From the IMG/VR virus record IMGVR_UViG_3300032334_002567, positions 1-64,000 of that record: 64,000 nt of DNA. The stretch is one strand, 5' to 3'. Position numbers and translations under genes: made by a program. The stretch's first letter is position 1. Every line of letters starts with the position of its first letter. The notes under the pieces are model-generated. The model had not been told where the DNA came from, made no database searches, and saw only the letters and a list, made by a program, of their open reading frames with translations. Below are positions 16,071 to 59,568 of the stretch, in pieces. The stretch comes from a virus.

Positions 16071-16535
16071 ATGAAAAGCTTTGAAGAGTGGAAACAAATA
16101 AACGAATCTGTTGAAGTATCTAGATACTCTGTAGAGGTCAACTTCAGAACTAACTTGGAAGAAGCTCTAGAAGGTTTCGCCAAAATTACTTTAGGCTACG
16201 TGAGTGCCGCTTTAAAGAAGCATGGATATCATACAAAGCATGTTTTCACAGAAAAGCCCCTAAGGTTATTAGTTTCTTCTAGAAACTGGGATGATGGAGA
16301 ATGGGTTGGTGCTGTTACTTATAACCCACAGTCACATTGCTTTTATCTAAGCAAAGGCTTCTACAACAAAAATCGTAGAAGCATATCAATAGAAAATTCT
16401 CAAAAGTGCGAAGGTAAATCAGCGGCAGAAATAACCAAAGAATTACATAACATGATGCATTCTTTAAAAGACGAACCAAACAAGCATGTAGAAAAATTAA
16501 AACCTGTACCACTAAAAAGAGGTCCCAAAAAATAA
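16071..16535 (+). CDS. Probable internal capsid protein with T4-like targeting N-terminus
   Basis: 154 aa. The N-terminus MKSFEEWKQINE followed by S is close to the T4 internal-protein targeting peptide MKTYQEFIAE, with a candidate prohead-protease site after I-N-E. The mature part (residues ~20-120) is a small alpha/beta domain unlike known internal proteins. The tail is Lys/Pro-rich and basic, which would suit packing against DNA. The enzymatic or anti-host function is unknown. It converges with the next gene. Confidence 0.6.
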   Translation: MKSFEEWKQINESVEVSRYSVEVNFRTNLEEALEGFAKITLGYVSAALKKHGYHTKHVFTEKPLRLLVSSRNWDDGEWVGAVTYNPQSHCFYLSKGFYNKNRRSISIENSQKCEGKSAAEITKELHNMMHSLKDEPNKHVEKLKPVPLKRGPKK

Positions 16536-16536
16536 A

Positions 16537-16764
16537 TTATTTTTGGTTCCATTCTTCATAGTTTCTAGCTTTTCTATTTTCGTAACCAAGTTTGTGTCCA
16601 TCGAAAAAAGCTTGTTTTACAAAACCTAAAAAAGCTTTATCGATACATTCTCCTCTTAGACTAAATTCTCCGTATGGTTCACCCATCCATTCTTTGAATG
16701 CTTCTTCTATTTTTTCGTAGTCTTCATTTAAGTCCAAATTTTTTTCTCCTTTTTTTCTTGCCAT
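16537..16764 (-). CDS. Small hypothetical protein
   Basis: 75 aa, charged, with helical segments and an aromatic-rich end (HKLGYENRKARNYEEWNQK). Its start lies inside the 3' end of the glycosyltransferase gene (37-bp overlap on the same strand), so the two are coupled. No family is recognised. Confidence 0.55.
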   Translation of the reverse strand: MARKKGEKNLDLNEDYEKIEEAFKEWMGEPYGEFSLRGECIDKAFLGFVKQAFFDGHKLGYENRKARNYEEWNQK

Positions 16765-17339
16765 CTAACATTATACAAAATATGGTCTGTCCAGTTGATC
16801 TCTCCACCCTTTTTTTCTATATTAACTAATAAGTCGAAATCTTCATATTGCCCATTATCAAACTTTATATCATTATTTTTTAAGAAATTAATATTCACAG
16901 CAAAGCTTATTCCTACATAAGATGACTTTACTTTTTTTTCAATTGGTAGCACAAAAGAGTTATCTTTGTTGTAAGTCATTCTAAACATATGAACTACTGA
17001 TTTAGAGCTACGTATTTCTTCATATAAAGTTTTAATATATGCATCTTTGAATGTATCATCATCGTCTAAAAAGCAAACCCAGTCTGTTTTTGCCATCTCA
17101 ATAAGATTATTACGAACTTTGCCAGCTTGTCCATGTTGTCCGTCAATTCCCAATTTATCTGGAAAGAAGATATATTCTATTCTTGGATCTTTTGGTAAAG
17201 GAAATTGTATTTTTTCAATAGAGTTAATTCCATCAAAACCAACCAAACATTTCCAATAAAGGTTTGACTGATTAATTAAAGATTTAAGACTATGGAGTAA
17301 TGTAGAGCGACCAATACTTGGAATTATTACTGTTACCAT
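16728..17339 (-). CDS. Family 2 (GT-A) glycosyltransferase
   Basis: 203 aa from ATG 17339; the longer frame upstream crosses the divergent promoter gap. It opens with VTVIIPSIGR, the usual N-terminal beta strand, and carries the metal-binding DDDD stretch in WVCFLDDDDTF near residue 106. GT2 enzymes transfer a sugar from a nucleotide donor. It diverges by 49 bp from a sugar nucleotidyltransferase, suggesting a shared glycan pathway. No membrane segment is present. The acceptor (virion protein, DNA or host glycan) is unknown. Confidence 0.82.
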   Translation of the reverse strand: MVTVIIPSIGRSTLLHSLKSLINQSNLYWKCLVGFDGINSIEKIQFPLPKDPRIEYIFFPDKLGIDGQHGQAGKVRNNLIEMAKTDWVCFLDDDDTFKDAYIKTLYEEIRSSKSVVHMFRMTYNKDNSFVLPIEKKVKSSYVGISFAVNINFLKNNDIKFDNGQYEDFDLLVNIEKKGGEINWTDHILYNVRWQEKKEKKIWT

Positions 17340-17388
17340 TTGATTTATCCAGTTATGCCAAATATAATATAGATAGGTGAAATAAAAA

Positions 17389-18129
17389 ATGACAAAATCA
17401 ATAGTTTTAATGGGTGGAACTGGGAGTCGAATGGCCCCGGCCACCAGCTTTGTTAACAAGCACCTACTGCCCGTCTACTCTGGGCAAGGTGCCGTTCCGA
17501 TGCTTTACTATCCGATTGACACCCTAATCAAAACTGGGTCAAAAGAGATATTAGTTATTTCTTCCCGTGAGCACTGCGGCAGGATAATTGAGCACCTAGG
17601 GGATGGCTCACAGTGGGGAGCAGACTTTACCTATAAGATACAGGACACAACCAGAGTCCCTATGGGTATAGCTAGTGCCTTAAAATTGGCAGAAGATTTT
17701 ACCCGTGACGAACCATTCTTAGTAATTTTGGGAGACAACTTCTTTGAAGACTCATTTGCGAATGAATTAGAAAAAATATCTAAATCAAAAGTTAAAGCTG
17801 GCATATTCTTGAAAGAAGTAGAAGATCCAAAAAGATTTGGAGTATACGCAGATGGGGAAATACAAGAGAAGCCTAAGCGGCCAAAAAGTAATTTGGCAGT
17901 AACGGGCCTTTATTGGTACACGCCGCACGTATACGAAGTAGCTAACAAACTACAAGTTTCTGCTAGAGGAGAGCTAGAAATATCAGATATAAACCAACAT
18001 TACTGTAGGAACAAAGAAGTGAGTGTCGATTATATAAAAGGCTTTTGGAGCGATATGGGCACCCCTTTTAGCCTACAAAAAACACAAGAATTCATTCAAA
18101 AAAAGAATTACAGATTAAAACCTATTTAG
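17389..18129 (+). CDS. Sugar-1-phosphate nucleotidyltransferase (RmlA-like)
   Basis: 246 aa. The signature GGTGSR (residues 9-14), KHLLPVY (24-30), LGDNFFED with metal-binding D116, and a later EKP motif match glucose-1-phosphate thymidylyltransferase. It would make dTDP- or UDP-sugar from NTP and a sugar phosphate. It is shorter than RmlA (~290 aa) and lacks the C-terminal tetramer-contact region. The first third of the gene is visibly richer in G and C than the surrounding phage DNA, which suggests a recent bacterial origin. It converges with the AAA+ gene by 8 bp. Confidence 0.85.
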   Translation: MTKSIVLMGGTGSRMAPATSFVNKHLLPVYSGQGAVPMLYYPIDTLIKTGSKEILVISSREHCGRIIEHLGDGSQWGADFTYKIQDTTRVPMGIASALKLAEDFTRDEPFLVILGDNFFEDSFANELEKISKSKVKAGIFLKEVEDPKRFGVYADGEIQEKPKRPKSNLAVTGLYWYTPHVYEVANKLQVSARGELEISDINQHYCRNKEVSVDYIKGFWSDMGTPFSLQKTQEFIQKKNYRLKPI

Positions 18130-19342
18130 GCTCATTGAAGTTCTCTTCGGCTTTTTGAACCGCATACCAGTCTCTCTGATATGAACCGTCAAGAAGCCCG
18201 TCGCCTCCAGCTAAATAGCTACGAACTATTCTCGGGTCAGTGGCACCAAGTTTAGCTGCCAAGTCTACGGCTGGCTTAATCCAGTCATGGTTTCCACCCT
18301 TCTCCAAAATTTCTTTTTCCAAAATTTGGTAAAGGATATCTTGTGTAGGACGAGGATAGTAAATTTGCGTTACACAACGGCTTGACAAGGCACCGGCTTC
18401 TGAGCCATCTGATCCCATCATTTTGTCAAACAAAACCTTATTGTTAACAGTACAAATAAACAATATTTTCAAAGACCTAAGCTGGTTAACTCTAAAGTTA
18501 ACCTTTCTAATTTCACCACGATCATCTAAGGCTCCCAACCAAATTTTTAAAGCCTCTGGCTCTGCTTTCTCAGCTTCTTCCATAAAAACCAATGGAGGGA
18601 TCTCTGAGAGGTCAGAAAAGAAGAGTTTCTCTAAACCAGCCTTTGTTGTACTAGTTGCGTCAAGCTTTAAGACCGCATCCTTGCCGAACATTTGTTCAAG
18701 GCTGAACATGGTTGTGGTTTTCCCACATCCAGCGTGTCCAAAAAGAACAGCATGGTTTCTGCTGTCGCCATTTGTTTCATGTGCCCTTTTTATATTTCGA
18801 AGAATGAGTCGTATCTGGGGGTTCACGCCATAGAGGTGCTTCCAAGCAGGATGATTGCTAATATGATCATCGCTCTTGTCGCCTAAAAGCTCTTGGGGAA
18901 CCTTCAAATCACTCCAAGTTTTAACTTTGCCTAAAGGCTGAACTTCTCTGACGTTGTTAGCCATTTTTTCATTTTGTAAAACTTGTTGCAGAACTTGGTC
19001 GGGGACTTCGCTGCTGCCTTTGCTAGAATCCTCAACTACCACCCAAGGACTTTCACCAAATTTACTTGCAGACCCAGACTGCTGAATCATGGCTCTGATA
19101 TCTTGCCATTGTTTAAATTCAGCTTCGCCACCAACCTGTCCTGCTTCTTTTTTAAGGGTGATCTCGTAACGATAAACCCATTGACCATTTCTTTCAAATG
19201 GCTCTACAGTGGGAGCGTCTGCGGCCCATGTTTTACCACGGGCACCGGCAATCCCACGGGAAATAATATACTCAATTTGAGAAATTATCTTCGAATTACT
19301 TGGTCTTTTAGATAATGTGCGTTCTAAAACCAATTTATACAT
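18122..19342 (-). CDS. AAA+ ATPase
   Basis: 406 aa. The AAA+ core begins near residue 195: Walker A GHAGCGKTT (202-210), a Walker B variant LVFMEEAE (251-258, with E in place of the usual D), sensor 1 at N300 in FICTVNN, and an arginine finger candidate R322 in SSRC. This resembles RFC/RuvB-type loaders. The N-terminal 190 residues form a separate domain of unknown family with a W/Y-rich strand region. It could be a clamp-loader-like or protein-remodelling factor. GC content is higher than its neighbours. The ribosome binding site is weak. Confidence 0.78.
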   Translation of the reverse strand: MYKLVLERTLSKRPSNSKIISQIEYIISRGIAGARGKTWAADAPTVEPFERNGQWVYRYEITLKKEAGQVGGEAEFKQWQDIRAMIQQSGSASKFGESPWVVVEDSSKGSSEVPDQVLQQVLQNEKMANNVREVQPLGKVKTWSDLKVPQELLGDKSDDHISNHPAWKHLYGVNPQIRLILRNIKRAHETNGDSRNHAVLFGHAGCGKTTTMFSLEQMFGKDAVLKLDATSTTKAGLEKLFFSDLSEIPPLVFMEEAEKAEPEALKIWLGALDDRGEIRKVNFRVNQLRSLKILFICTVNNKVLFDKMMGSDGSEAGALSSRCVTQIYYPRPTQDILYQILEKEILEKGGNHDWIKPAVDLAAKLGATDPRIVRSYLAGGDGLLDGSYQRDWYAVQKAEENFNEPK

Positions 19343-19436
19343 TGTCTTTTGCGTCCTTGTGTATAATTAGCAGGAAACAAAGACAAGTATAGCAGAAAAA
19401 TTTGGCTTGTAAACCAACCCAAATTTTAACTTTAAA

Positions 19437-19922
19437 TTAGCCTAGAATAATTTCAAGACCATCTAAAGGAGATTCATTTAGCAAAACATCAGTTTTTGGA
19501 GATGAATCTGTGGAGTCGTTCATTGGTTGAACGGCAGAATTTCCATCTACAAGAACGTGTTCTACTTTTCCTTGATTTGTCACTGTATCTGGTTGGTCTA
19601 GAATCAACTTCTTTTCATTCATATTGCATTCCTCATTTATGATTGGATCTACATTATTAGTAGGGTTAGTTTTAGGTAGTATCTCTTCTACTAATTTTAA
19701 CAAATTCATTGGTGGTCCAACCCAATTCATGTAGTAACTATCTCCTTGAAATCTCTTTCTTGGAGAAACAGATCTAACCCCGCTGGATGTGGGTTTGGGT
19801 AAAGTCAGATCACCATCTGTGTTATTTTCATATATATAAATTCCGCTTCCGGTCATATTATTCTTGAATTTATCGGCTCGTAACTCTTTTTTTTGTTCTC
19901 TAGTTAATTTTTTTCTTCTCAT
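19437..19922 (-). CDS. Hypothetical protein, mostly disordered
   Basis: 161 aa. The N-terminus is very basic (MRRKKLTREQKKELRADKF), then a short conserved-looking core (FQGDSYYMNWVGPPMNLLKLVEEIL, in outline), then a long Asn/Asp/Ser/Pro-rich acidic tail. This suggests a nucleic-acid- or protein-binding peptide rather than an enzyme. The ribosome binding site is weak. It diverges from a winged-helix protein across 70 bp that contains a TATAAT-like hexamer. Confidence 0.5.
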   Translation of the reverse strand: MRRKKLTREQKKELRADKFKNNMTGSGIYIYENNTDGDLTLPKPTSSGVRSVSPRKRFQGDSYYMNWVGPPMNLLKLVEEILPKTNPTNNVDPIINEECNMNEKKLILDQPDTVTNQGKVEHVLVDGNSAVQPMNDSTDSSPKTDVLLNESPLDGLEIILG

Positions 19923-19991
19923 TTTATTTTCTTTTGGGGTTAAAGCGTATAATTATTATAGTACGAAACAAATAAAAGAGAAAGGGTAAAA

Positions 19992-20324: not shown

Positions 20325-20325
20325 C

Positions 20326-20532
20326 TCAGCCCTTTCTATCAGGCTTATGATTTCCCATCTTCTGCATAGCATCGGCAGCTATTGGCATAAAGTAGGCATC
20401 TGGATATTGCTGGCGAGCATAAGCATCTGGGTATGCCCAGTGTGCGATACCAGCACGATGTGTCTTTTCTTCCACTTGGTACAAGGGAAGCTCTCTTTTT
20501 GATTCTCCAGCCCATTGAATGAATGTCTTCAT
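20326..20532 (-). CDS. Small protein with capsid-targeting-type N-terminus
   Basis: 68 aa with a good AAGGAAATT ribosome binding site. The start MKTFIQWAGE-S closely parallels the T4 targeting peptide, with a candidate cleavage after A-G-E. The remaining ~58 residues are His/Tyr/Ala-rich (YPDAYARQQYPDAYF duplicates YPDAY). It is likely packaged in the head and cut to a short peptide. Function is unknown. Confidence 0.55.
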   Translation of the reverse strand: MKTFIQWAGESKRELPLYQVEEKTHRAGIAHWAYPDAYARQQYPDAYFMPIAADAMQKMGNHKPDRKG

Positions 20533-20552
20533 AATTTCCTTACTTTAAGTGT

Positions 20553-20564: not shown

Positions 20565-20597
20565 TTATTATATGTATGTTCTAACTTGAAATTTTAA

Positions 20598-21257: not shown

Positions 21258-21280
21258 ATTAAATCAAAGAAGGGGAAAAA

Positions 21281-22003: not shown

Positions 22004-22011
22004 GGAAAAAA

Positions 22012-23167: not shown

Positions 23168-24493
23168 ATGTTATCTTACAAACAATGGAAATCAATAAAT
23201 GAATCCGTTCTACCGAGTTTTACTCTCGGACTATCAAACCCTTTGAACTTGGGCATAAAAGCACAAGGAGGAGTCGAACTTGATGAAGCCGGTCACGGCC
23301 ACCACAAAAAGAAAAAAGATAACAAAGAAGAACCAGAAGTCGAAGTAGATGTTAAAGAAGATGATGAAAAATGTAAGTGTGGTAAAAAATGTGGTATGAA
23401 ATGTGGAAAAATGTCTAAGAAGAAAATGTGGTCAGACGAAGATGATCAAGAAGATGAAGAAGAAGATCATGACGAAGATTCTGAAGAAGAATCCGAAGAA
23501 GAAGATCACGACGAAGATTCTGAAGAAGAATCCGAAGAAGAAGATCACGACGAAGATTCTGAAGAAGATGCTGAGGAGATGAAGTTCAGCAAAAAATCTA
23601 AGAAAAAAATGCTAAAAGGCAACCAGCACAAACTAGATGCCAATCATAATGGAAAAATAGATGCAGAAGATTTTAAGATTCTAAAAAGCAAGAAAAAGAA
23701 AATGGGTTCAGATAGCGTACAAAAACAAATAGACTACCATAAAGAAGTTGGATCTGATGGGATGCCCGATACTCCAGCAAAGGGTAAAACGATAAACAGC
23801 AATAAAAACTTCAGAGGCGGAAATGATTACCAACATCCATATGCCAAAAACATGAAGAAGATGAAGAATAAAATGAAAAAAGAAGAAACAGAATGGTGGA
23901 CAAGCGTACAAAATATGTTAGGGGCTGATCCCAACACCAAATTCAACGACGGATGGACAGAATATCAGTCTGACTCGCTGTTTACGCCAGTTGATACAAA
24001 TTCTTTAACACAAGCAATTAGACCAGACGGTGAGCCTGCTCCCGGCGAAGTAGGCTTTGCTCCACAAGGAAGAATGAATAGCTTTGCAAACGCAGAAGTT
24101 ACAGAAGCAATGGACTTGGATCTTGGAAAAGCTGAGGTGCCACACAGAAGGGCCCTAATACAAGATCCTAAACTAGGTGATCTAGTTAGCACTGCAACAG
24201 CACTAAAAGCTCATCAAAATAACTTAAGTAAAAATGATGATGGAATAGTTCATGATGAAAAGAAAAAACCAGTTTGGATAAAAACTGGTGATTCTGATCA
24301 TCGTGTTTTGGGTAACCCACTAACAAAAGAACCAGTATTATATCTAACTAGAAGTGATGCAAATGCAGCTGCAGCCTTAAAGGGCGGAAGAGCAATGAGA
24401 TCACATGGTGGTTACATATTAGTAAAACATGCCGTACCTGAAAAATCACAGTACGGCCTAGGATTCAGCTCAGATCAATGGGACTTGGCCTGA
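23168..24493 (+). CDS. Acidic, EF-hand-containing protein with capsid-targeting-type N-terminus
   Basis: 441 aa with an AGAGAGGA ribosome binding site. MLSYKQWKSINE-S matches the targeting consensus with an I-N-E site. Residues ~65-80 hold a Cys/Lys cluster (KCKCGKKCGMKCGK), likely metal-binding. Residues ~88-138 are a very acidic stretch built from a 13-residue repeat. An EF-hand-type calcium loop, DANHNGKIDAED, spans residues 157-168. The C-terminal ~200 residues are globular and unrecognised. It may be a head-internal protein that manages divalent ions or DNA contacts. The 3' end overlaps the convergent epimerase by 19 bp. Confidence 0.65.
   Translation: MLSYKQWKSINESVLPSFTLGLSNPLNLGIKAQGGVELDEAGHGHHKKKKDNKEEPEVEVDVKEDDEKCKCGKKCGMKCGKMSKKKMWSDEDDQEDEEEDHDEDSEEESEEEDHDEDSEEESEEEDHDEDSEEDAEEMKFSKKSKKKMLKGNQHKLDANHNGKIDAEDFKILKSKKKKMGSDSVQKQIDYHKEVGSDGMPDTPAKGKTINSNKNFRGGNDYQHPYAKNMKKMKNKMKKEETEWWTSVQNMLGADPNTKFNDGWTEYQSDSLFTPVDTNSLTQAIRPDGEPAPGEVGFAPQGRMNSFANAEVTEAMDLDLGKAEVPHRRALIQDPKLGDLVSTATALKAHQNNLSKNDDGIVHDEKKKPVWIKTGDSDHRVLGNPLTKEPVLYLTRSDANAAAALKGGRAMRSHGGYILVKHAVPEKSQYGLGFSSDQWDLA
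23465..23581. repeat. 39-bp tandem repeat, 3 copies, coding for an acidic 13-mer
   Basis: Copies begin at 23465, 23504 and 23543 and differ by only a few bases; the last diverges at its end. Each encodes D-H-D-E-D-S-E-E-E-S-E-E-E or a near variant. The in-frame unit allows length change in the acidic region without a frameshift. Confidence 0.85.
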
Positions 24494-28922: not shown

Positions 28923-30686
28923 ATGACACCAATAGAATTATCTCCTACAGATACACCAACTCCAACACCAACGGATACTCCACCTACAGATACTCCTACT
29001 CCTACTCCTACTCCTACTCCAACACCAACGGATACTCCACCTACAGATACACCAACCCCAACACCAATTCCACCTACAGATACTCCTACTCCAACACCAA
29101 TTCCACCTACAGATACACCAACTCCAACACCAATTCCACCTACAGATACTCCAACTCCAACACCAATTCCACCAACAGATACTCCTACTCCAACTCCAAC
29201 GCCAATTCCACCAACAGATACTCCTACTCCAACTCCAACACCAATTCCACCAACAGATACTCCTACTCCAACACCAATCCCACCAACAGATACTCCTACT
29301 CCAACACCTACCAATACACCTACCAATACACCCACCAATACACCTACCAATACACCTACCAATACACCCACCAATACACCTACCAATACACCCACCAATA
29401 CACCTACCAATACACCTACCAATACACCTACCCCTACTCCAACTCCTGCTCCTCAATTAATTAAATCAGGAGAAATTGTTCTTCTACTTTCTGGTTCGGG
29501 TGTTACCAGTCCAGGTCAGTCTTTGGGTGGAGAACCTTCTAATACTTTTGTGTCTCAGAGACTTTTTTCAGATATATCTGCTGATCAGGCACAAGAAGGC
29601 AAGACAGACTACAGATGCATATACGTTAGCAATGCAAGTAACGAAGGAACTCTTTATGGTGCAAAAGTTTATATACTTTACAAAGAAACAAGTGACGTAA
29701 CAGTAAATTTGGGATTCGTGGCTAGAAATGAAGTTCAACAGATAATAATATCAAAAGTAAAATCCATATGCAGTGGTACTTTTAAAATAATATACACAGA
29801 CACTTATTTAGGAAATATACGACAACAAGTTACATCAGAAATAGATCTATTCACAGAAGCCGGTGAAGCAAAAAGCATTGAAGAGATATCTTCTTCTATA
29901 AAAGAAAAACTCTCAGAACTAAATGGTTTAGAAACTGTTAATTCTATTGATTCAATATCAGTAGGTGGAAGCCAAGATGTAGGCGAAGAACAAAACGTTG
30001 TAAACGAAAATAGTCAAACAAATTCGGGAAGTTCAAGTATTTCAGAATTCACTCTCAGACATTCCCCTATAACTAGTAATTCTATATCAGGAACAATATA
30101 CTTAAATAGCAACCCAATACAAACATTCGTAATGCAGGAATCCGGAACAAGCGGTGAATGTGGAATAAACTATAATTTAATCTTTACAAGTATAGGTTCT
30201 CAAGCAATAAAAGCAACTAGTGGAACAATAAATCTAACAAGTGGAAATTTGACTTTAAATTGGAACAATAGTTCTCCTGGTGTTAACTACGTACGGACTA
30301 ATTACACCTATAAAAACACTACCTTTACTTTTAATATAACTTTTCAAGGACAAGTAGGAAATCGTTTTAATGATGAATTGGCTGTTAGTGATGTTAATCT
30401 TGATTCAATAGAAAGTCCTACAATTCAAACATATAGATTGTTTTCAGGAGGACCTGTTAATACAGAAGCAGATATCATAGACGTAGAAACAACTACGCCA
30501 AATGGTGTAGAATTTTGTAGAAATACAAGTTGCTCAAGTGAAGGGTACGATAACGCTTTTTATCTAGGAGATCTACATCCTTTAGATGTAGCTCCTATTT
30601 GGATAGAAAGAATAGCACCAGCAGATTCAAACGCTATTGAAAATGATGGATTTACTTTAAAAATTGACGGCACAACTTCGAGATAG
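28923..30686 (+). CDS. Fibre-like protein with a ~165-residue Thr-Pro stalk
   Basis: 587 aa. Residues ~8-177 are a Thr-Pro stalk in three flavours: [17 protein letters not shown] and PTNT repeats. The rest (~178-587) is a beta-rich, Asn/Ser/Thr-rich domain set with few charged residues, typical of adhesins. It shares the stalk type with the LamG protein at the left edge. A tail fibre, capsid fibre or baseplate spike are all possible. No Shine-Dalgarno sequence precedes the ATG. Confidence 0.65.
28950..29448. repeat. Low-complexity Thr-Pro coding repeats (6-, 12- and 30-bp-scale units)
   Basis: The stretch is nested: CCTACT/CCAACA hexamers, longer [11 protein letters not shown] units recurring about every 30-36 bp, and near 29305-29430 about eleven copies of a 12-bp CCTACCAATACA unit with single-base C/T variation. 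All unit sizes are multiples of three, so the frame is kept when copies are gained or lost. Confidence 0.9.
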
Positions 30687-32660: not shown

Positions 32661-32711
32661 TAAATCGCCTTTATTAATTTGAACTTTATTACCTTATTTA
32701 TACTTTATGTG

Positions 32712-32724: not shown

Positions 32725-33600
32725 ATGAATTTTAAAGAGTGGCTAACAATTTTAGAAGCAACAGATTTGGAAACAGCTCCTAGTGAAGCCATCCATATTC
32801 ATAAGACCCATGATGGAGATGGAGGAACCCAATACGTAGCCACCTTTCAAATAAACAAAGGATCAGAAAGAGTAGGGTTTAAAGTAGCTGCAGAATTATT
32901 AGAAGATGAAAAAATTAGAAAAAGAGACCAAAATGGAAAAATCTATTCCATTCCTTTGAAAGGGGTTCTTTCTATAGTTTTTGGCCCCGACAAAGGATAT
33001 GGAGATCCTTCTTATGACGTTTCTAATATTTGGGGGTCTAACGCAAAATATATCTATACAAATGTAATGGTGGCAGTAAATAAAATTATTGATAGTGTGA
33101 CAGAAACTGATGTGGATGGCCTTGTTTTTACAGCCTATGATCAACGAACAGAACCAATATATCATAGGATATATTTAACGCAATTAAAACCAAGGGGCTT
33201 TATAAAAGTAGCTGACGATATGTATGCTAAGAAGGAAGTACTAGAGGCTGGGTTAAAAAAATTCCCTCCGGATGTTCAAGAATTTATAAAAAATGATGTA
33301 GAGTCCGCAGAGAGAAAGACTGTAAACAGATTAGATGCCGTGAGAAGAGAAAAAATAGAATCCAGACAAAAAACAGTACAAGCAGAAAATTTAAAAAGAT
33401 TAATTGGAAAAATAGTTTTATATAAAAATAATCCTAAGTTTGAGGGCACTGTATCTTCTGGATTGCTTTGGTCTGTGGATATGTCGCAGCACTATGCTTT
33501 AATAAAAAATAAAAAATTACCTGCGGGGCGTGAAGAAGATGCTTCATCGTGGTATGGTTCCATACAGGTTCCGGTAATGGATGTTATTGGATTAAGCTAA
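32725..33600 (+). CDS. Probable internal capsid protein (292 aa scale) with targeting N-terminus
   Basis: 291 aa from ATG 32725, preferred over the ATG at 32707 because MNFKEWLTILE-A then matches the shared N-terminus with an I-L-E cleavage site. The body has an alpha/beta domain to ~residue 180 (YIYTNVMVAVNKIIDS...DGLVFTAYDQ), resembling GNAT-like or toxin-like small enzymes without clear catalytic residues. A charged helix (~190-235) and a small beta domain at the end (GKIVLYKNNPKFEGTVSSGL) follow. Function is unknown. It converges with the degenerate methylase by 4 bp. Confidence 0.6.
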   Translation: MNFKEWLTILEATDLETAPSEAIHIHKTHDGDGGTQYVATFQINKGSERVGFKVAAELLEDEKIRKRDQNGKIYSIPLKGVLSIVFGPDKGYGDPSYDVSNIWGSNAKYIYTNVMVAVNKIIDSVTETDVDGLVFTAYDQRTEPIYHRIYLTQLKPRGFIKVADDMYAKKEVLEAGLKKFPPDVQEFIKNDVESAERKTVNRLDAVRREKIESRQKTVQAENLKRLIGKIVLYKNNPKFEGTVSSGLLWSVDMSQHYALIKNKKLPAGREEDASSWYGSIQVPVMDVIGLS

Positions 33601-36609: not shown

Positions 36610-36981
36610 TTATTGATTACGTTGCCTAGTTTGAACATAAAAAACATAAGATTTTTTCAGATTTCCAGCTTCAACCTGACTTGGCGATTGAGTTTCTCTA
36701 TATGAGACGACTAACTTCGTACTTTCTGTTTCATAAGCCAATATACTTTTTAATTTGCCTAAAACCGATGCTACAAATTCTGGTCTTCCTGTAATTCTGA
36801 TGCCGTCTTCGCCGTATGTTGAACCTTTGTGATCATAGCTTATCGGTGCCATTTGTATAGGGGAATCAATCCTTAGAGTTTTCCAAAAGTCAATAATTTG
36901 ATCTTTAGTCGCTCTCCATTCTGATTTTTTTCCCAATTCTTTTTGGGATTCTCTATCACTAATCCAATTTTTAAATTCCAT
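36610..36981 (-). CDS. Probable internal capsid protein with targeting N-terminus
   Basis: 123 aa from ATG 36981; upstream in-frame codons lie inside a terminator and are rejected. MEFKNWISDRE-S gives the targeting motif with a D-R-E site. The body is a compact alpha/beta domain (FWKTLRIDSPIQMAPISYD..., FVASVLGKLKSIL) with no recognised catalytic residues. An ACTAAATA box ends 4 nt before the ATG, so the transcript is probably leaderless. Confidence 0.6.
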   Translation of the reverse strand: MEFKNWISDRESQKELGKKSEWRATKDQIIDFWKTLRIDSPIQMAPISYDHKGSTYGEDGIRITGRPEFVASVLGKLKSILAYETESTKLVVSYRETQSPSQVEAGNLKKSYVFYVQTRQRNQ

Positions 36982-37007: not shown

Positions 37008-37036
37008 AATATAGAGTGGGTTTCCCCACTCTATAT
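37008..37036 (-). terminator. Rho-independent terminator (minus strand)
   Basis: A near-perfect hairpin with ATATAGAGTGGG and CCCACTCTATAT arms and a tiny loop is followed on the minus strand by T8. It would stop any minus-strand transcript arriving from the right before the late box for the 36981 gene. There is no matching U tract on the plus strand. Confidence 0.85.
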
Positions 37037-37338: not shown

Positions 37339-37346
37339 ACTAAATA
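37339..37346 (+). promoter_or_regulatory. Late-promoter-like box ACTAAATA, 5 nt before the ATG
   Basis: The same octamer as at 36986, here on the plus strand, ends 5 nt before ATG 37352. The two face apart around the terminator and gene-poor stretch. Confidence 0.5.
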
Positions 37347-37351: not shown

Positions 37352-37660
37352 ATGATAACTTTTAAAGGGTTTTTAGAATCCAAAGTAATAATAGAAGCAG
37401 ACGCACCACCACCCGCTGGTGGGCCTCCAACGCCTCCCAGTGGTGGACCTGCCGCAGGAGGAGCCGGTGGCATATCTTCGCCTGCTTCATTGCCTGGTGG
37501 GCCTCCAATGCCACCTCCTGCTATGGGTGGAGGTATGGGAGGTGGTCCTGCTATGGGTGGGCCTCCAACAGGAGATGCATCAAGTCAAAATAAATCTATG
37601 AAATTAAAAGCTTATAACGTTTGGGACGTAATAGAAAAATTAATTACCAAAGATAGCTGA
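37352..37660 (+). CDS. Gly/Pro-rich protein with capsid-targeting-type N-terminus
   Basis: 102 aa from ATG 37352 (an ATG at 37346 overlaps the promoter box). MITFKGFLES-KVIIE-A carries the targeting motif with an I-I-E site. Residues ~18-75 are almost all Gly, Pro, Met and Ala (GGPP, PPP and MGGG repeats) and must be disordered. The last 25 residues form a helix (LKAYNVWDVIEKLI). It could be a flexible core or scaffold protein. It precedes SbcD by 64 bp. Confidence 0.6.
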   Translation: MITFKGFLESKVIIEADAPPPAGGPPTPPSGGPAAGGAGGISSPASLPGGPPMPPPAMGGGMGGGPAMGGPPTGDASSQNKSMKLKAYNVWDVIEKLITKDS

Positions 37661-41824: not shown

Positions 41825-44098
41825 ATGTCAAAGCAACACAAGAAAACGAGAAACTTTCACGCTGGAATGGGTCAAGCTGTAGCGGAGAGAACGATTCTCA
41901 GAAAGAAAGAAGATGGTAAGTGGGAAACATGGGCAGATGTTGCCAATCGTGTTGCACTAGGAAATTCACTTCTATGCAAAGAATCAAAAGAACAAGAGTC
42001 AGAATATGAGGCTTTACAAAAGCATTTAATAAACGCAACAACTCTTATGAGCGGTAGACATCTACAGCACGGAGATGAGTCGCAACCAGAAAGAAACATG
42101 GAAGTTTACACCAACTGTTCAACTTCCAGCACTAGCTTCATGCTTTTTTACTTATTAATGAACGGTTCTGGTGTGGGTAGAAGTTATGACGACGACATGA
42201 TGCTTGTTGATTGGGATAACGCTCCAGCTCTTAGGTGTGTTTTAAGTGAAACTCATGCAAATTTTGATTTTTCGGCTCACGAATCTGTGAGAGATGCAAA
42301 ACACAAATATGGCAGCGGCAAAGACGTTTTATGGCATCTCGTTGAAGATACAAGAGAGGGATGGGCAAAAGCACTAGAAATATGGGAAAATGCAGCTTTT
42401 GAAAAAATCCATAAAGATAAATTGTTCATACTTGACTTTTCAAACGTTCGACCAAAAGGTGCTCCTATAAATGGAATGCAGAAACGTCCAGCTAGCGGAC
42501 CTGTTCCCTTGATGAACGCATTCAACAAAGCTGCAACTCTAAAAGCAACTGGTTTGCCCCGGTGGATGCAGACAATTTATATTGATCATTATTTTGCCGA
42601 ATGTGTTTTGGTCGGTGGGGCCAGAAGAGCAGCAAGAATGTCTACTAAGACATGGAGAGATGATAGTGTGTTAGAATTTATTACTATCAAAAGACCAATT
42701 GAATTTGCCAATAAAGGGGTAGATGAAATAACAGAGCTAAGAAAGCAAATAAGTCCAATGGGATTCTTGTGGTCTTCAAACAATAGCATTACTGTTGACC
42801 AAGAATTCTGGAAGCTCTTGAATGTAAAAAAAGGTAGTGAAGAATATAGTTCTGAATTAGCCAAACATGCAAGGAATGTTTATAAACTTGCAGTTTCTGC
42901 TTCTTATGGTGATGGCACTGGTGAGCCTGGATTTATCAATGTTGACAAACTAAATCAAGATAAGCTCGGAACTGAGAAGCTTGTTAAAGAAAGTGACTCA
43001 CTTGTTGGTAGCAAAAAATATAGCTTAAATGAAGACACAGGACTTTATATTAATAGGCTTTTGAAGAAAGCTGTTAAAAAACAGCATTTCATGATAACCA
43101 ATCCATGTGGTGAAATTTCTATTGCTGTGTGGGGTGCTTTTTGCACTATTGCGGATGTGGTTCCTTATCATGCTGAAACCTTGGAAGAAGCAGAAGACGC
43201 ATTTAGGTGTGTTACAAGAGCTTTAATCAGGGTAAACACCATGGATAGTGTTTATAAAAAAGAAGTTAAAAGAACTAACAGAATAGGAGTTGGAATAACT
43301 GGGATTCATGAATTTGCATGGAAGTTCTTTGGATTAGGATTTAAAGATCTAATAAATGAAGAAAAGTCCAAGGAATTTTGGATGACTATGGCAAGATTTA
43401 AAAGAGCCGTGCAAGACGAAGCCAGAGAATACTCAAAGAAAATTGGCGTAAATGTTCCTCATTCTGACACGACAATTAAGCCTGCTGGCACAACGAGTAA
43501 ATTATTTGGCCTCACAGAGGGATGGCATCTACCGTCTATGAGATGGTACATGAGATGGGTTCAATTCAGTAAATCAGATCCATTGGTCAAAAAGTATAGT
43601 GAATCTGGTTACCCTGTGAAAGAACTGACTAGCTACCAGAATACTGTTATTATCGGATTTCCAACTACCCCAGTTATAACTGAGCTTGGGATGGAAGACG
43701 CCCTGATTACAGCCGGTGAAGCTTCACCAGAAGAGCAGTACAAGTGGTTAATGCTCGGTGAAAAATACTGGATTCGTGGCGTAGATGTTGACGGAAATCC
43801 ACTAGATAAAGATACGGGAAACCAAATTAGCTACACGTTAAAGTACAACCCCAATAAGGTTGATTTTAAGACTTTCTGTGACACGCTAAAAAATAGTCAG
43901 AGCCTAATTAAATGTTGTTCGGTAATGCCACAAGAAGATCGTAGCAGTTATGAATATTTACCAGAGGAATCGGTGACAAAAGCAGAATACGAAAACGTTG
44001 TAAGAAAAATTACTTCTTCTTTGCAGGAAGACGTAGATCGTACACACGTAGATTGTGCAGGCGGTGCATGTCCCGTTGACTTTAAGAAAGAATCATGA
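41825..44098 (+). CDS. nrdJ: Class II (adenosylcobalamin-dependent) ribonucleoside-triphosphate reductase
   Basis: 757 aa, close to the monomeric Lactobacillus-type enzyme. Active-site residues: C98 in YTNCSTSS and the NPCGEIS loop with C428 and E430. The C-terminal dithiol C744-AGGA-C749 re-reduces the active site. It converts ribonucleotides to deoxyribonucleotides with B12 and so works with or without oxygen, needing no small subunit. It has an AAAGGTG ribosome binding site. Its ATG sits behind the membrane protein, and its TGA overlaps the next ATG (ATGA at 44095-44098). GC content is a little above the surroundings, which may reflect bacterial origin. Confidence 0.93.
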   Translation: MSKQHKKTRNFHAGMGQAVAERTILRKKEDGKWETWADVANRVALGNSLLCKESKEQESEYEALQKHLINATTLMSGRHLQHGDESQPERNMEVYTNCSTSSTSFMLFYLLMNGSGVGRSYDDDMMLVDWDNAPALRCVLSETHANFDFSAHESVRDAKHKYGSGKDVLWHLVEDTREGWAKALEIWENAAFEKIHKDKLFILDFSNVRPKGAPINGMQKRPASGPVPLMNAFNKAATLKATGLPRWMQTIYIDHYFAECVLVGGARRAARMSTKTWRDDSVLEFITIKRPIEFANKGVDEITELRKQISPMGFLWSSNNSITVDQEFWKLLNVKKGSEEYSSELAKHARNVYKLAVSASYGDGTGEPGFINVDKLNQDKLGTEKLVKESDSLVGSKKYSLNEDTGLYINRLLKKAVKKQHFMITNPCGEISIAVWGAFCTIADVVPYHAETLEEAEDAFRCVTRALIRVNTMDSVYKKEVKRTNRIGVGITGIHEFAWKFFGLGFKDLINEEKSKEFWMTMARFKRAVQDEAREYSKKIGVNVPHSDTTIKPAGTTSKLFGLTEGWHLPSMRWYMRWVQFSKSDPLVKKYSESGYPVKELTSYQNTVIIGFPTTPVITELGMEDALITAGEASPEEQYKWLMLGEKYWIRGVDVDGNPLDKDTGNQISYTLKYNPNKVDFKTFCDTLKNSQSLIKCCSVMPQEDRSSYEYLPEESVTKAEYENVVRKITSSLQEDVDRTHVDCAGGACPVDFKKES

Positions 44099-44646
44099 AT
44101 TTCAAAGATTTTTTAGTTTGCGAACAACAAGTAAGTTTGAGCCAAAAAATTGGCCCGATCCTAGGGGACGCACAACAGTTGCGTGATCAGGCCAATAAGC
44201 TTGCTGTAAAGCATTTAGCCCAATTTTCTGGGGATGTGGTGAGAAAGATAAGGGATATACTTCATAGCCATTGGTCGGATGAACAAGTTAAATATTTAGA
44301 AAGGCTAAGAATTGTAGCTTTTAATATAGCTGATGCTATAAAAGAAAAAGGAGACCTACCAGGAATCATAGCTGCATCTGTGGAAGAATTAGATAAAATT
44401 GTTAAGGACATTGGTTCTCCAATAAACTCACTTGCAGTTGATCCAGGAACCGATAATAAAGAAACGGATTCAAAGGGCACAAGTCCCGCAATTAAGAACG
44501 TACCAAATAAGGACCAGTCCAAGCCGCCAGCACAAACTAAAACTGTTGATTCGGCCGTAACAGCTACAAATCCACTTAGCAACGATCCTGAGTCGGTTGT
44601 AAGCCCTCCTTTGGGAGGCAGCTCTGGTACTTTAGATGCGTTTTAA
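44095..44646 (+). CDS. Probable internal capsid protein with targeting N-terminus
   Basis: 183 aa, coupled to the RNR stop. MNFKDFLVCE-Q fits the targeting peptide with a V-C-E site. The body has a helical domain (~15-105: QLRDQANKLAVKHLAQF...HSHWSDEQVKYLERLR) and a disordered Asp/Ser/Pro/Thr tail. No recognised function. Packing between an RNR and a GMP reductase gene is odd for a virion protein. Confidence 0.55.
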   Translation: MNFKDFLVCEQQVSLSQKIGPILGDAQQLRDQANKLAVKHLAQFSGDVVRKIRDILHSHWSDEQVKYLERLRIVAFNIADAIKEKGDLPGIIAASVEELDKIVKDIGSPINSLAVDPGTDNKETDSKGTSPAIKNVPNKDQSKPPAQTKTVDSAVTATNPLSNDPESVVSPPLGGSSGTLDAF

Positions 44647-54950: not shown

Positions 54951-54952
54951 AG

Positions 54953-55513
54953 CTATAACATAAAATCTGGTGTTTTTGGAGTAATGTATTTTAGGAACTC
55001 CACAGTTCCATTATTTGTAAAAACTACCTCATATCGACCTCTACATTGATGAGTGCTGCATTCGCAGTCCAAAGATCTAAAGTACTCTGCAATTGTTTCG
55101 CTTCCAGTTTTCCCAAATTTTTGTGTTCTAAGATAACATTTTCTTTTGCTTCTTCTGCCTGAGTCTAAAAACCAAACCATCCAAGACTCATCTGTCAAAA
55201 CCTCTAAAGTTTCCCGAGCTATTATCTTCGATGAGTCTTTATAAAAAATGTTATGTATGTCATTAAAGATAGGATATGCTACACTATAAACTCTATAAGT
55301 ATTTTTATCTTTTTTTATAGTATTCTTATCTATCTTAAAAAAATTACTTAACATATCAACTTTATAAGACAGCCAGTCTTTATTTTTATCTCGCATGGCC
55401 AAGTAGCAGTTCTTACCTTTGGATGGTCTTATAATAGAAGAACCTCCCAAGATAGTACCATAAAGCACTTGCTTTTGTTTTTCTGTAAATTTTGGACCAA
55501 TTTGGTAAGTCAT
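54953..55513 (-). CDS. LAGLIDADG-like homing endonuclease, catalytic Asp altered
   Basis: 186 aa. Motif 1, LYGTILGGSSI (residues 17-27), corresponds to LxGxLLGDGxI but has Gly in place of the catalytic Asp. Motif 2, WMVWFLDSGRR (110-120), keeps D116. Freestanding LAGLIDADG proteins are mobile elements in phages. The lost Asp suggests a decaying or repurposed copy. It sits between an adenylate-forming enzyme and a capsid-targeting-type gene, 2 bp from the former. Confidence 0.68.
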   Translation of the reverse strand: MTYQIGPKFTEKQKQVLYGTILGGSSIIRPSKGKNCYLAMRDKNKDWLSYKVDMLSNFFKIDKNTIKKDKNTYRVYSVAYPIFNDIHNIFYKDSSKIIARETLEVLTDESWMVWFLDSGRRSKRKCYLRTQKFGKTGSETIAEYFRSLDCECSTHQCRGRYEVVFTNNGTVEFLKYITPKTPDFML

Positions 55514-55516
55514 AAA

Positions 55517-56056
55517 TTAATCTTTGTCTTTAAAAAATTGCATATTTTTATCTGCCCATTCTATAACCATGTGCGTTCCTCTGGACAACAGTCCTACCAA
55601 TTGGGTGGGGTTTCCAGAACCCTCTATTGATATGTTTTCTCTTTCATTATTCTCGATCCAAACCAAAGAAAATATTAAACTTTTTCTTTTCTTAAGTTCT
55701 TCTACCATTTGGTGAATAGTAACTAGAGATAAATCTGGGATGCCTAGTTCTTGATATTTTTTCTTTAGTTTTTCTTCTTGGGACTCAATTATTAGCAATA
55801 AATTATCAGAAAGAGCTTTTAAACCAGCTTCTAAATTTGCTCCACTAAAAAATATTTTACATAAGTTTGAATCAACTTTGGTTAATTTGGCTTCGAAACT
55901 TGTCGTTTCATTAGCATTTTTTACCATGTATTCTATTTCTTCTTGCACTCCCCTAGACAGTATTTCATAAAAAACAAAGAAAGGTCCGTCTTTTGTTTCT
56001 ACTAATTTAACCCCGTCTATTCTTTTAAAAATATTTATAAAATCTTCAAAATTCAT
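55517..56056 (-). CDS. Hypothetical protein with partial targeting-type N-terminus
   Basis: 179 aa. MNFEDFINIFKRIDG starts like the targeting peptide but has no (I/L)xE site nearby. The body is alpha/beta with a coiled-coil stretch (EEKLKKKYQELG). It lies 7 bp downstream of a clear targeting-type gene and may have lost the site. Function is unknown. Confidence 0.5.
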   Translation of the reverse strand: MNFEDFINIFKRIDGVKLVETKDGPFFVFYEILSRGVQEEIEYMVKNANETTSFEAKLTKVDSNLCKIFFSGANLEAGLKALSDNLLLIIESQEEKLKKKYQELGIPDLSLVTIHQMVEELKKRKSLIFSLVWIENNERENISIEGSGNPTQLVGLLSRGTHMVIEWADKNMQFFKDKD

Positions 56057-56063
56057 TTAATTC

Positions 56064-56579
56064 CTATCTAATCATTGATTTTGGAAGAACCCTATAGAGT
56101 TTGATAATATGCTTACAAAGCATAGGATCATTGTTTGGATTCACAGAAGGTCTATTACCAGTGGGTGTGTATGAAGACCTTTTTCTTCCAAACAAGGATT
56201 TGTCTAGGTGGTCGGCATAATTGCCTCGCCAATAAAAATCCTTACAATTGCAGCGAACTAAAACATGACTATTTGGATCAATTTTATTAAATTCATAGCT
56301 TTTACCATTATTTGCAACTATTTTAACATTAAGTCCCGCACCATATTTGACATTTTTAAACAATATAGAAGGCATATATTCTTTGCCATTTTCTGTATTT
56401 TGAGCCAAACCTTTCAGGTATAGAGTTTTTAATCCTAAATAAGGGACCCAGTGTAGTTTTGATATCTTTATTGGGTCTATTGCGTATTGTCTTCTAGTGG
56501 CCTTAGGAAAAGCCTTCACGGTACTTGTGTACAAGTCGTTTAAACTGCTCTCTGCTATAAACCATTGTTCGAAATTCAT
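56064..56579 (-). CDS. SWIM zinc-finger protein with capsid-targeting-type N-terminus
   Basis: 171 aa. MNFEQWFIAE-S is the closest match here to the T4 targeting peptide (MKTYQEFIAE). A SWIM finger is complete: C110-N-C112, then C155-K-H157, a DNA- or protein-binding motif. The middle residues (SYEFNKIDPNSHVLVRC) form the preceding hairpin. Packing in the head and binding to DNA would fit both features. AATAAATA ends 4 nt before the ATG. Confidence 0.65.
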   Translation of the reverse strand: MNFEQWFIAESSLNDLYTSTVKAFPKATRRQYAIDPIKISKLHWVPYLGLKTLYLKGLAQNTENGKEYMPSILFKNVKYGAGLNVKIVANNGKSYEFNKIDPNSHVLVRCNCKDFYWRGNYADHLDKSLFGRKRSSYTPTGNRPSVNPNNDPMLCKHIIKLYRVLPKSMIR

Positions 56580-56583
56580 ACTA

Positions 56584-56591
56584 TATTTATT
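56584..56591 (-). promoter_or_regulatory. Late-promoter-like box AATAAATA, 4 nt before the ATG
   Basis: AATAAATA fits NATAAATA and repeats the short spacing seen at 32712, 36986 and 37339, all before targeting-type genes. Confidence 0.45.
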
Positions 56592-56633
56592 ATCATAATG
56601 TTCAAAACTTAACTATAATAAATCGGAGGAATA

Positions 56634-56930
56634 ATGGAAAAAGAAGAAAAAGAAGAGATTATAAAGTTTGAGAATAGAAAGACTTTTGAAGTCAAAATGA
56701 GACCTGCCAATGGAGGGGGAATAGAAAAAGCAATTTTTATAGATGGTGAACTACTAGATTGGCAAGTAGATATAAACTCTTTGGTAGATGCTATGAAAAT
56801 GGGGCCACAGTACATGAGAGAAATTCAAAGGGACATAGAAAAGCACTTTGTAGAATCTGTGTCTGATACTGTTGGAAGAAAAGTCACAGCAGAAGATATT
56901 AAACAAGCAATTAAAGTTGGATATATCTGA
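56634..56930 (+). CDS. Hypothetical protein
   Basis: 98 aa with a GGAGG ribosome binding site. A basic N-terminus is followed by an alpha/beta region and a C-terminal helix (SDTVGRKVTAEDIKQAIKVG) reminiscent of short histone-like or NAP contacts, without a match I trust. It lies 1 bp before the aminotransferase ATG, so it is coupled to it. Confidence 0.55.
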   Translation: MEKEEKEEIIKFENRKTFEVKMRPANGGGIEKAIFIDGELLDWQVDINSLVDAMKMGPQYMREIQRDIEKHFVESVSDTVGRKVTAEDIKQAIKVGYI

Positions 56931-56931
56931 T

Positions 56932-58206
56932 ATGAGTATGGTACATGATATACTGTGTAAACACACTATAGGCGATGGAGAAAAAATCGTCATAGACCCA
57001 GTTAAAAGCAATGGTGTGTATCTTGTAGACTTAATTGATGGAAAAAAATACCTAGACTGTTCAAGTCAATATGCCAGCATGGCTCTTGGTTGGAATAATC
57101 CAACATTAAAAAAATACCTAGAAGAAAACAAAGAAAGTCTAAATTTCTGTAATTTGCATAAAATTGCAAACTGTGATTTTTACACAACAGTGTATGCAGA
57201 ATTTGTAAGCAAGTTTTCTGAAATTACAAGTGATTTCAAACATTTGTTTTTTGTAGAAGGTGGAACTTTAGGTGTAGAAAACGCAATAAAAGCAGCCTTT
57301 GATTGGAAAGCTAAGAAACTCGGGCTGACTCATAAAGCTTCTAATTCTATAGTTAACAAGTTCGATGTTATACATTTACAGCAGGCGTTTCATGGAAGAA
57401 GCGGATATTGTTTGTCTATAACTAACACAATAGCAAACAAAGTTTCATTGTTCCCAAAGTTTAATTGGACAAGAATAAAAAATCCAAAGTTAGAATTTCC
57501 TATCGTTGAAAGCAAAGTCGCAATAGATGAAGAGCTAAGCTTGTTGCAGGCCGAAAATGCTCTGAAATCGAATAATGTGGCTGCAATAGTTCTGGAAACC
57601 ATTCAAGGTGAAGGAGGTGATAATCACTTTAGAACAGAATATTTCAAAGCTTTGCGTAAACTTGCAGATCAATATGAGGCATTACTTATATTGGACGAGG
57701 TTCAAACTGGTGTTGGACTTACGGGTAAAATGTGGGCTTACCAACATTCTGGGATAATCCCAGATATAATAGCTTTTGGAAAAAAGACACAAGTTTGCGG
57801 CTTTGCTTCCACCGATAGGATTGATGAAGTTTCTGATAATGTTTTTCGTGAATCAAGTAGAATAAGTTCTACTTGGGGCGGTAATATAATTGATATGTAC
57901 AGATTTACTCAAATAATAGAAATATTACAAGAACAAAGATTGGTTGATAATGCCAAAGAAGTGGGCGAATATTTTTTAAATAAACTTTATGAAGTAAAAA
58001 ATATAAAGAATGTTAGGGGCAAAGGATTAATGATTGCCTTTGATCTAAATACAACCCAAGAAAGAAATGAAGTTCTAAAAAAGCTTCAGTCAGATATGGC
58101 TATATTGCCTTGTGGAGAAAAGTCAATTCGTTTAAGGCCACATCTCATCTTCTCTAAAGATAATGTAGATGAAGCCATATATTATATAAATAAATCTGTT
58201 TCTTAA
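56932..58206 (+). CDS. lat: L-lysine 6-aminotransferase
   Basis: 424 aa from ATG 56932, the first in-frame ATG after the previous stop. Class III aminotransferase with L-lysine epsilon-transaminase features: the AFHGRSGYC loop (152-160), LETIQGEGGD (221-230), D255/E256 in LDEVQTG, and the PLP lysine in AFGKKTQVCG (K284/K285), characteristic of Lat. It converts lysine and 2-oxoglutarate to allysine and glutamate. The same phage carries glutamate dehydrogenase nearby, which would recycle the glutamate. The ribosome binding site is weak. Confidence 0.85.
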   Translation: MSMVHDILCKHTIGDGEKIVIDPVKSNGVYLVDLIDGKKYLDCSSQYASMALGWNNPTLKKYLEENKESLNFCNLHKIANCDFYTTVYAEFVSKFSEITSDFKHLFFVEGGTLGVENAIKAAFDWKAKKLGLTHKASNSIVNKFDVIHLQQAFHGRSGYCLSITNTIANKVSLFPKFNWTRIKNPKLEFPIVESKVAIDEELSLLQAENALKSNNVAAIVLETIQGEGGDNHFRTEYFKALRKLADQYEALLILDEVQTGVGLTGKMWAYQHSGIIPDIIAFGKKTQVCGFASTDRIDEVSDNVFRESSRISSTWGGNIIDMYRFTQIIEILQEQRLVDNAKEVGEYFLNKLYEVKNIKNVRGKGLMIAFDLNTTQERNEVLKKLQSDMAILPCGEKSIRLRPHLIFSKDNVDEAIYYINKSVS

Positions 58207-59568
58207 TCAACCAAACCAAGTAAATTTGTTATCTTTACCACGACCTAATATGGAATTTAAAAATTCTTGGTCTGGTATGTTGTGATCTCCATACACGCCA
58301 CCTGTAGGATTGCCTCCCGAACTTACGTCTGAGCTGTAGTTGATGTTAGGAGGGGCAACATCTGAACTGCCTGTTCCAAAAGGCTCTTTTCTCTTTGTGA
58401 ATGAACCCTTTTCTCTAAGAGGCGGAGCTTTTAATGGCTTGTTTTTTCCTACATATTGATATGTTGCATGATCTGCTGCAGCTGAGTCTGGGCCCATGTC
58501 TGATACGCTTCCTGTTTGAGGACCAGCACCAACAAAAGACTGATAACTTTCTGGAGGCTGTTGTGCTGATTGTGTATTTTGTGGTGTTTGATTTCCCATA
58601 TTTCCTAATTTATCAACTACAGCATTTAAAGTCTTGGTAAAATCTTGATTAACATTAGTATTGCCTAGTTTAGACTGTAAATCACGTAGTGCAGACATTG
58701 CAAGAGTTATAGACTGCAGATCTCTTTCAGCGTCTACTCCAGCTTGTCTTTGTTGTCCAGCCTTGCCCCAATTTGACCAAGCAGATTTTACATTGGCCCA
58801 TTGATTGCCTATCCAATCACCTGCTTTTTGCAACCAATTCTCTGAGTAATTATCTACATACCACTCTGTGAAAGCTACAATATCTATTCCTTGATTTTGC
58901 AATTCAAATAGTTGCTTTTTTATTTCTAGGTCTTCATCAAAAAACTCTGTTTGAACAGATTCATCTAAACTATTTTTAAGTAAACCAATTAAATTAATTA
59001 TATTTTTATGAAACTCTGGATCTGCTACTTTATTTTGTAGATCTTTTGAAACCCCTAACCTTTTGGACAAAGTATCTAATGCATGTCTGGCAACCGCTTG
59101 GGATTTTTGAAGGGGTGTCATTTGTGGTTGTGGTTGTCCATTAGTAGTTGTAGAACCTTGCTGTGCTTGGGCTTGGTTTTGATTTTGTTGTGGTTGATCT
59201 CCTATGACACCCTTTGTAAAACTATCTCCGGCTCCTTTTGCAGAACTTGCCCAAGAACCGATTCTTTTGGCTAAACCTTGTGCTGCTGAGCCTAGGGCAC
59301 TTCCCATATATTCTGCACTTGCTGATGGCTTTTCTACAGAAGAACCGGCTGAGTAACCTTGACTGGCTCTGTTAGCCAAACCTGCTGCTGTCGGGAACCA
59401 TTTGTTCAAAAATTCATTTAAAATAAGTTTATCTTCAAATTGACCATCTTCAACATACCAATTGATGAATTTTTCTGGGTCTATACCCTTGTCTGCCATT
59501 ATAACCAGTGCTTGTTCTAGCAATTTAATGTTTTTGGTGATTCTAAGACTTTCAGAAAAACTTCTCAT
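58207..59568 (-). CDS. Structural-like protein with duplicated N-terminal domain
   Basis: 453 aa from ATG 59568, with TTAGGAG upstream. Two ~55-residue segments share a pattern: L...A.QGID...F..WYV, at residues ~28-75 and again at ~222-275 (GIDPEKFINWYVED, GIDIVAFTEWYVDN). These are separated by a long Ala/Ser/Gln-rich, low-charge linker. The C-terminal ~120 residues are Gly/Ser/Pro-rich. The start MRSFSESLRIT is a partial match to the targeting peptide. Likely a virion or core protein. Confidence 0.6.
   Translation of the reverse strand: MRSFSESLRITKNIKLLEQALVIMADKGIDPEKFINWYVEDGQFEDKLILNEFLNKWFPTAAGLANRASQGYSAGSSVEKPSASAEYMGSALGSAAQGLAKRIGSWASSAKGAGDSFTKGVIGDQPQQNQNQAQAQQGSTTTNGQPQPQMTPLQKSQAVARHALDTLSKRLGVSKDLQNKVADPEFHKNIINLIGLLKNSLDESVQTEFFDEDLEIKKQLFELQNQGIDIVAFTEWYVDNYSENWLQKAGDWIGNQWANVKSAWSNWGKAGQQRQAGVDAERDLQSITLAMSALRDLQSKLGNTNVNQDFTKTLNAVVDKLGNMGNQTPQNTQSAQQPPESYQSFVGAGPQTGSVSDMGPDSAAADHATYQYVGKNKPLKAPPLREKGSFTKRKEPFGTGSSDVAPPNINYSSDVSSGGNPTGGVYGDHNIPDQEFLNSILGRGKDNKFTWFG

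Follow-up and report, generated by a model that had tools for sequence, protein, structure and literature searches.

The internal proteins IPI, IPII and IPIII of phage T4 and its Alt protein carry a capsid-targeting sequence (CTS) that is cut by gp21, an N-terminal leader of 10-15 residues with aromatic residues at positions 4 and 7 (PMC9026906, PMC7697877). Mutagenesis in T4 showed that residues 4 and 7 govern targeting and residues 8 and 10 govern processing (PMC9026906). IPI blocks the GmrSD restriction enzyme, and IPIII is required on the E. coli strain ECOR17 (PMC9391042). Proteins with a CTS or a CTS-like leader are already known in T4 and its relatives; leaders of similar length and aromatic placement recur in the phage described here, and what we report is very probably T4's system with an unusually large cargo repertoire. 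A non-exhaustive literature search found no description of a repertoire this large, nor of this clade.

The analysis centred on the first 64 kb (hereafter the window) of the 381,443-base virus record IMGVR_UViG_3300032334_002567 (GC content ~35%). The stretches read cover about 204 of 381 kb (54% of the record), including 140 kb outside the window. The source phage is a giant relative of T4, and the T4-type genes in the window encode a terminase large subunit, a neck protein, a Dda-like helicase, ribonucleotide reductase and an SbcD-like nuclease subunit. A LAGLIDADG homing endonuclease gene (phrog_11023) at 54953-55513 lies near the tagged gene at 56064-56579. Further along the record (G000:C1:264001-284000, L004), one stretch has a GC content of 0.37-0.44 against ~0.35, repeated short genes with a GPIYSxLSGK motif, and a gene style unlike the remainder.

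A first-pass annotation had singled out eight N-termini in the window, here named by the positions at which they start, as sharing a T4-like leader. All eight are present in the sequence and read as described (Table 1); three of them need an internal ATG rather than the start of the longest open reading frame (32725, where the frame opens at 32707; 36981, with a GTG at 37029; and 37352, with the frame opening at 37346). The pattern originally given, M-x-[SNT]-[FY], strictly fits only four (16071, 20532, 23168 and 37352). All eight do share a core, M-x(1-2)-[FY]-x-x-[WF], in which an aromatic pair occupies residues 3 and 6 or 4 and 7. The leaders had also been said to reach a Glu followed mostly by Ser or Ala, as is seen in seven of the eight, with Gln at 44095, and to precede unrelated bodies, in agreement with which no BLAST cluster contained two tagged proteins of this phage. 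In a predicted structure of the 16071 protein, the body folds moderately (mean pLDDT 66) and had no confident match in the PDB; residues 1-25 fall below a pLDDT of 50, as would be expected if the leader were detachable. The prediction for 56579 reached a pLDDT of only 35.

Table 1. Candidate capsid-targeting leaders and context features of the window (a slash marks the predicted cut after Glu)
Feature	Positions	Strand	Observation
CTS leader MKSFEEWKQINE/S, 154-aa protein (gene 16071-16535)	16071..16106	+	Relatives keep [IL]xE/[SA] directly before V[EQ][VT]SRY; leader predicted disordered, body folded
CTS leader MKTFIQWAGE/S, 68-aa protein (gene 20326-20532)	20503..20532	-	8 relatives: MKTF[IM]QWA conserved, Glu not
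CTS leader MLSYKQWKSINE/S, 441-aa acid-rich protein (gene 23168-24493)	23168..23203	+	Orthologues MLSYKQWKNLNES, MLSYKQWKTLNES
CTS leader MNFKEWLTILE/A, 291-aa protein (gene 32725-33600)	32725..32757	+	TAAATA 1 base before ATG
CTS leader MEFKNWISDRE/S, 123-aa protein (gene 36610-36981)	36949..36981	-	Orthologues keep aromatic pair, leaders differ
CTS leader MITFKGFLESKVIIE/A, 102-aa Pro/Gly-rich protein (gene 37352-37660)	37352..37396	+	G006 orthologue MNTFKEFLESKLINE/D
CTS leader MNFKDFLVCE/Q, 183-aa protein (gene 44095-44646)	44095..44124	+	No relative in pattern scans of viral contigs
CTS leader MNFEQWFIAE/S, 171-aa protein with CxC...CxH zinc-finger-like pattern (gene 56064-56579)	56550..56579	-	Relatives MEFYKWFLKES, MQFQNWLFINES
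Left end of record	1..1889		G001 portal-p614-protease-scaffold-gp23 block (~36.2-43.8 kb there) starts ~6 kb beyond gene matching 1890-2714; protease ~10 kb beyond
Terminase large subunit (context)	4213..6039	+	PF03237, E=1.4e-10; 78% identity to G001 counterpart
Neck / head-tail adaptor protein (context)	15141..16013	+	phrog_211, E=8e-16; 87% to G001

We consider it very probable that this common N-terminus is a T4-type CTS, by which the proteins would be packed in the head, trimmed, and delivered with the DNA. The first-pass annotation had proposed the same interpretation; support for it comes from the motif together with its statistics and conservation, and from the head machinery of collinear relatives. 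The aromatic spacing also matches the two targeting positions of T4 (PMC9026906), which supports the CTS reading. From these observations we infer a path of core binding, packaging, cleavage and injection. The tagged proteins would be made late in the infected cell. A short helix made up of roughly the first 10 residues would attach to the growing gp22-type scaffold core through its aromatics (3/6 or 4/7), and the protein would thereby be enclosed in the prohead. A gp21-type protease would then cut after the Glu and free the mature cargo as the scaffold is destroyed; DNA would be packed around the cargo, which would enter the next host with the genome. The bodies would mostly be early-acting host-takeover or anti-defence factors, some of them enzymatic, along with a few core proteins, as some tagged proteins may themselves be core structural proteins.

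The proposed late timing can be compared with upstream sequences, as TAAATA is the core of the T4 late promoter. This hexamer was found within 60 bases upstream of 11 of 24 tagged genes but of only 18 of 236 others in this record (P=5e-6). No relative taken singly showed a significant enrichment, and we regard the TAAATA result as supporting evidence only. For tagged genes 32725, 36981, 37352 and 56579, TAAATA ends 1-5 bases before the ATG; if it is the late promoter core, the messages of these genes would be almost leaderless.

The leader is transferable between unrelated bodies: unrelated bodies are tagged, and a NUDIX hydrolase is known both with it (MIEFSKWREKKLNEQ in relative G006) and, in LR756511 and G003, without any N-terminal leader. 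Elsewhere in this record leaders precede a PLA2-like domain (223104), a PolyA-polymerase head domain (340477) and a weak HD match (157711), while most tagged bodies match no known family. The enzymatic look of the NUDIX, PLA2-like, PolyA_pol head and HD-like bodies counts against the strongest alternative, in which the leader acts as an address for the prohead core, yet many of the proteins that carry it are building blocks of the scaffold or core, comparable to gp67 and gp68 of T4, and are degraded or retained in the head rather than injected as effectors. The repertoire also differs greatly among relatives, as expected of accessory cargo. Building blocks would nevertheless fit the low-complexity, Pro/Gly-rich 37352 protein, the acid-rich 23168 protein and the short, strongly conserved 20532 protein, and in relatives the gene immediately preceding that of the protease encodes a ~614-aa protein that itself starts with MKRKLISFDxFKxxEE and has many [ILM]xE/[AS] sites. 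We judge it unlikely that building blocks make up many of the bearers, and prefer injected cargo for most of them.

A broader idea is that the clade runs a general protein-delivery system in which a transplantable leader sends 25-40 fast-evolving effectors, enzymes among them, into the head and can even move to the C-terminus; we offer this tentatively, as somewhat less probable than not. NUDIX enzymes of relatives that have no N-terminal leader (L042:18464-18874, L012:4471-5085, L013:4471-5085) end in SFKEWLSQRI or SFADWCETRKAQN, and from their sequences these ends may be leaders moved to the C-terminus. As a general C-terminal CTS, [FY]xxW was not clearly enriched, and a narrower post-hoc pattern for C-terminal copies was borderline (P=0.03).

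The first-pass annotation had suggested searching the genome for a gp21-type protease and counted its absence from the complete genome against the CTS reading. Such a protease, with a gp22-type scaffold, was detected in the records of four relatives and in the 595-kb relative LR756511, but not in this incomplete record. Our searches of the 381-kb record, Pfam S77 among them, found no S77/gp21 protease, and Pfam searches of it for gp23, portal and sheath gave no matches. By contrast, records holding relatives of the 16071 protein carry an S77/gp21 protease (E~1e-28; PDB 5jbl, prohead core protein protease, E=5e-18), and the head block of the relatives follows T4 order: portal, the ~614-aa protein, protease, a coiled-coil gp22-like scaffold and gp23 (PDB gp23, E~1e-33). 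We initially read the lack of a protease as a true absence and replaced that reading after comparison with the relative G001, which is collinear, in reverse, with window positions 1.9-34 kb. In G001 the counterpart of the gene at window 1890-2714 ends at 30.5 kb, the head block runs from ~36.2 kb and the protease starts at 40.8 kb, so that in this phage the corresponding block would lie past the left end, outside the contig. Judged from gene order, the missing protease is best explained as a limit of assembly rather than as biology, and it contradicts the CTS reading only superficially. At the end of the record (G000:C1 ~379,000-381,400; L026:17645-19942) there are long Gly/Ile-type repeat frames, probably a collagen-like fibre gene read on its reverse strand; these frames are a likely cause of the assembly break. 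The major capsid protein match in the record itself (29937-30314) was rejected as a capsid gene, as it is a domain shared with the Pro/Thr-repeat protein at 28923. That 587-aa protein (28923-30686) has long Thr-Pro repeats, and over ~110 residues it shows 36% identity with residues 139-238 of the major capsid protein found in relatives, which suggests a common surface domain.

The relatives also show how the leaders evolve. Pattern scans of viral contigs yielded no relatives of 32725, 23168, 36981 or 44095; orthologues of 23168 and 36981 are present in the stretches of relatives that were read. Orthologues of 36981, 56579, 37352 and 16071 keep the starting aromatic pair while other leader residues change. 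For example, the body that follows MEFKNWISDRE in this phage follows METFNEFLKSRD in G006 and MMTFKEFMGSQE in G003, and the 56579 body follows MNFEQWFIAES, MEFYKWFLKES or MQFQNWLFINES. In several relatives the 16071 gene reaches further upstream, where a sequence resembling a ribosome-binding site accompanies the new start and its fresh leader (MKDFQVW or MKNFQNW), and the old internal position has lost its first aromatic (MKTHHEY). The motif thus tracks what is probably the true N-terminus. The [IL]xE/[SA] site is kept in orthologues of the two best-sampled genes, 16071 and 56579; among the six close homologues of 16071, the Glu site that precedes V[EQ][VT]SRY reads INE/S, FIE/S, LVE/A, LVE/S or LTE/A, and it reads LEE/V in a more distant relative from LR756511. 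In these orthologues conservation rests with the motif and with the Glu site and not with the sequence, which points to selection on the motif. The 20532 family has a tandem duplicate in one relative (L054:2001-2539), reading MKTFIQWAGEVK and MNTFIQWAGENQ.

Exact cleavage after each named Glu is a weaker claim than targeting. A gp21-type (L/I)xE site ends five of the eight leaders (16071, 23168, 32725, 37352 and 56579), and those of 20532, 36981 and 44095 have no canonical [IL]xE. In pooled counts, a loose Glu site was present in 23/69 tagged proteins against 80/711 in the background (P=5e-6), and the strict [IL]xE/[AS] site in 6/69 against 26/711, a marginal difference (P=0.055). The three leaders without a gp21-like cut site would be compatible with sorting to another destination, such as a membrane, a replication compartment or another part of the virion, with the likeness to the T4 CTS a coincidence, and in this clade the tie between motif and head is drawn from sequence. 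We find such a destination improbable, since the aromatic spacing is the same as in the T4 CTS, the relatives hold a complete T4 head module, and the Glu-Ser/Ala sites of several leaders resemble those of the scaffold: [IV][NT]E/S is conserved across the scaffolds of five relatives, whose protease has, near its N-terminus, LNES in four cases and LKES in the fifth.

We evaluated the motif with a fixed rule, an aromatic pair spaced +3 and then a Glu within nine residues, applied to predicted starts with internal methionines of the same proteins as the control. In the window, 11 of 79 genes matched this strict rule against 1.4 expected (P=1.5e-4); when the Glu also had to be followed by A, S, G or Q, nine genes matched against 0.4 expected (P=4e-5). 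The scan for further members proposed in the first-pass annotation was productive, with 13 of 181 genes matching in the 140 kb outside the window against 2.5 expected. The rule matched 18/98 genes in relative G006 (1.4 expected) and 16/221 in LR756511 (1.9 expected). T4 itself had 7/219 matches (3.1 expected), recovering IPII and IPIII and missing IPI and Alt, and the stretches of P-SSM2, RaK2 and phiKZ showed no significant excess. Across 780 genes of this phage and four relatives, +3 aromatic pairs began at residue 3 in 25 cases and at residue 4 in 44 (7.0 expected at either position), or 69 against 14 expected at residues 3/6 and 4/7, where all eight members fit; spacings of +1, +2, +4, +5 and +6 at these two residues were near background, and only +3 was clearly enriched. 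Extrapolated from the excess in 54% of the record, these counts suggest roughly 25-40 tagged proteins per genome. Some matches are chance, a probable example being 10852, which encodes a primase and was set aside. Chance resemblance among short aromatic-rich starts picked by eye would account for such matches and for a formal pattern that fits half of the eight, but as an explanation of the whole it is refuted by enrichment in this phage and its relatives (P between 1e-4 and 1e-13, controlled by internal methionines and by spacing), the lack of significant excess in the RaK2, phiKZ and P-SSM2 stretches, and conservation across orthologues.

Four weaker relatives of the leader had also been listed. 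We rejected 56056, which has no cleavable Glu and whose near relatives keep an uninterrupted body sequence, and 59568, which has no +3 aromatic pair. The 32660 start is doubtful, with F4 and W8 giving a +4 spacing, and 15106 is ambiguous, its homologues having different, F-rich N-terminal extensions.

If the CTS reading is correct, a simple rule on the N-terminus would be enough to find injected first-strike proteins in the raw sequence of uncultured giant phages. As the internal proteins of T4 include anti-defence factors, the tagged orphans, mostly without a recognised family, would form a ranked list of anti-defence and takeover candidates. The system would also show how far the T4-type head extends as a protein-delivery device.

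The candidate system resembles the T4 internal proteins and Alt in the Glu cleavage context of five of the eight leaders, in the unrelated bodies and in the gp21-22-23 module (PMC9026906, PMC7697877), here seen in relatives. It differs from T4 in that Trp is preferred as the second aromatic and F is often at residue 3, in that some bodies have recognisable enzyme domains, and in an estimated 25-40 bearers per genome where T4 has three internal proteins plus Alt. The ejection proteins of phiKZ-like phages and SPN3US are likewise internal proteins of giant phages trimmed by a gp21-related protease (PMC5694885), as is predicted here. However, their propeptides are mostly longer than 100 residues and a gp22 counterpart is not confirmed, whereas here the leaders have 10-15 residues and, in relatives, a scaffold gene adjoins the protease. 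DarB of phage P1 is similar in having an N-terminal signal, which sends an anti-restriction protein into the head (PMC9024508). It differs in that its first 30 residues have been shown to be sufficient, and in that P1 is described as having no separate scaffold system (PMC9024508).
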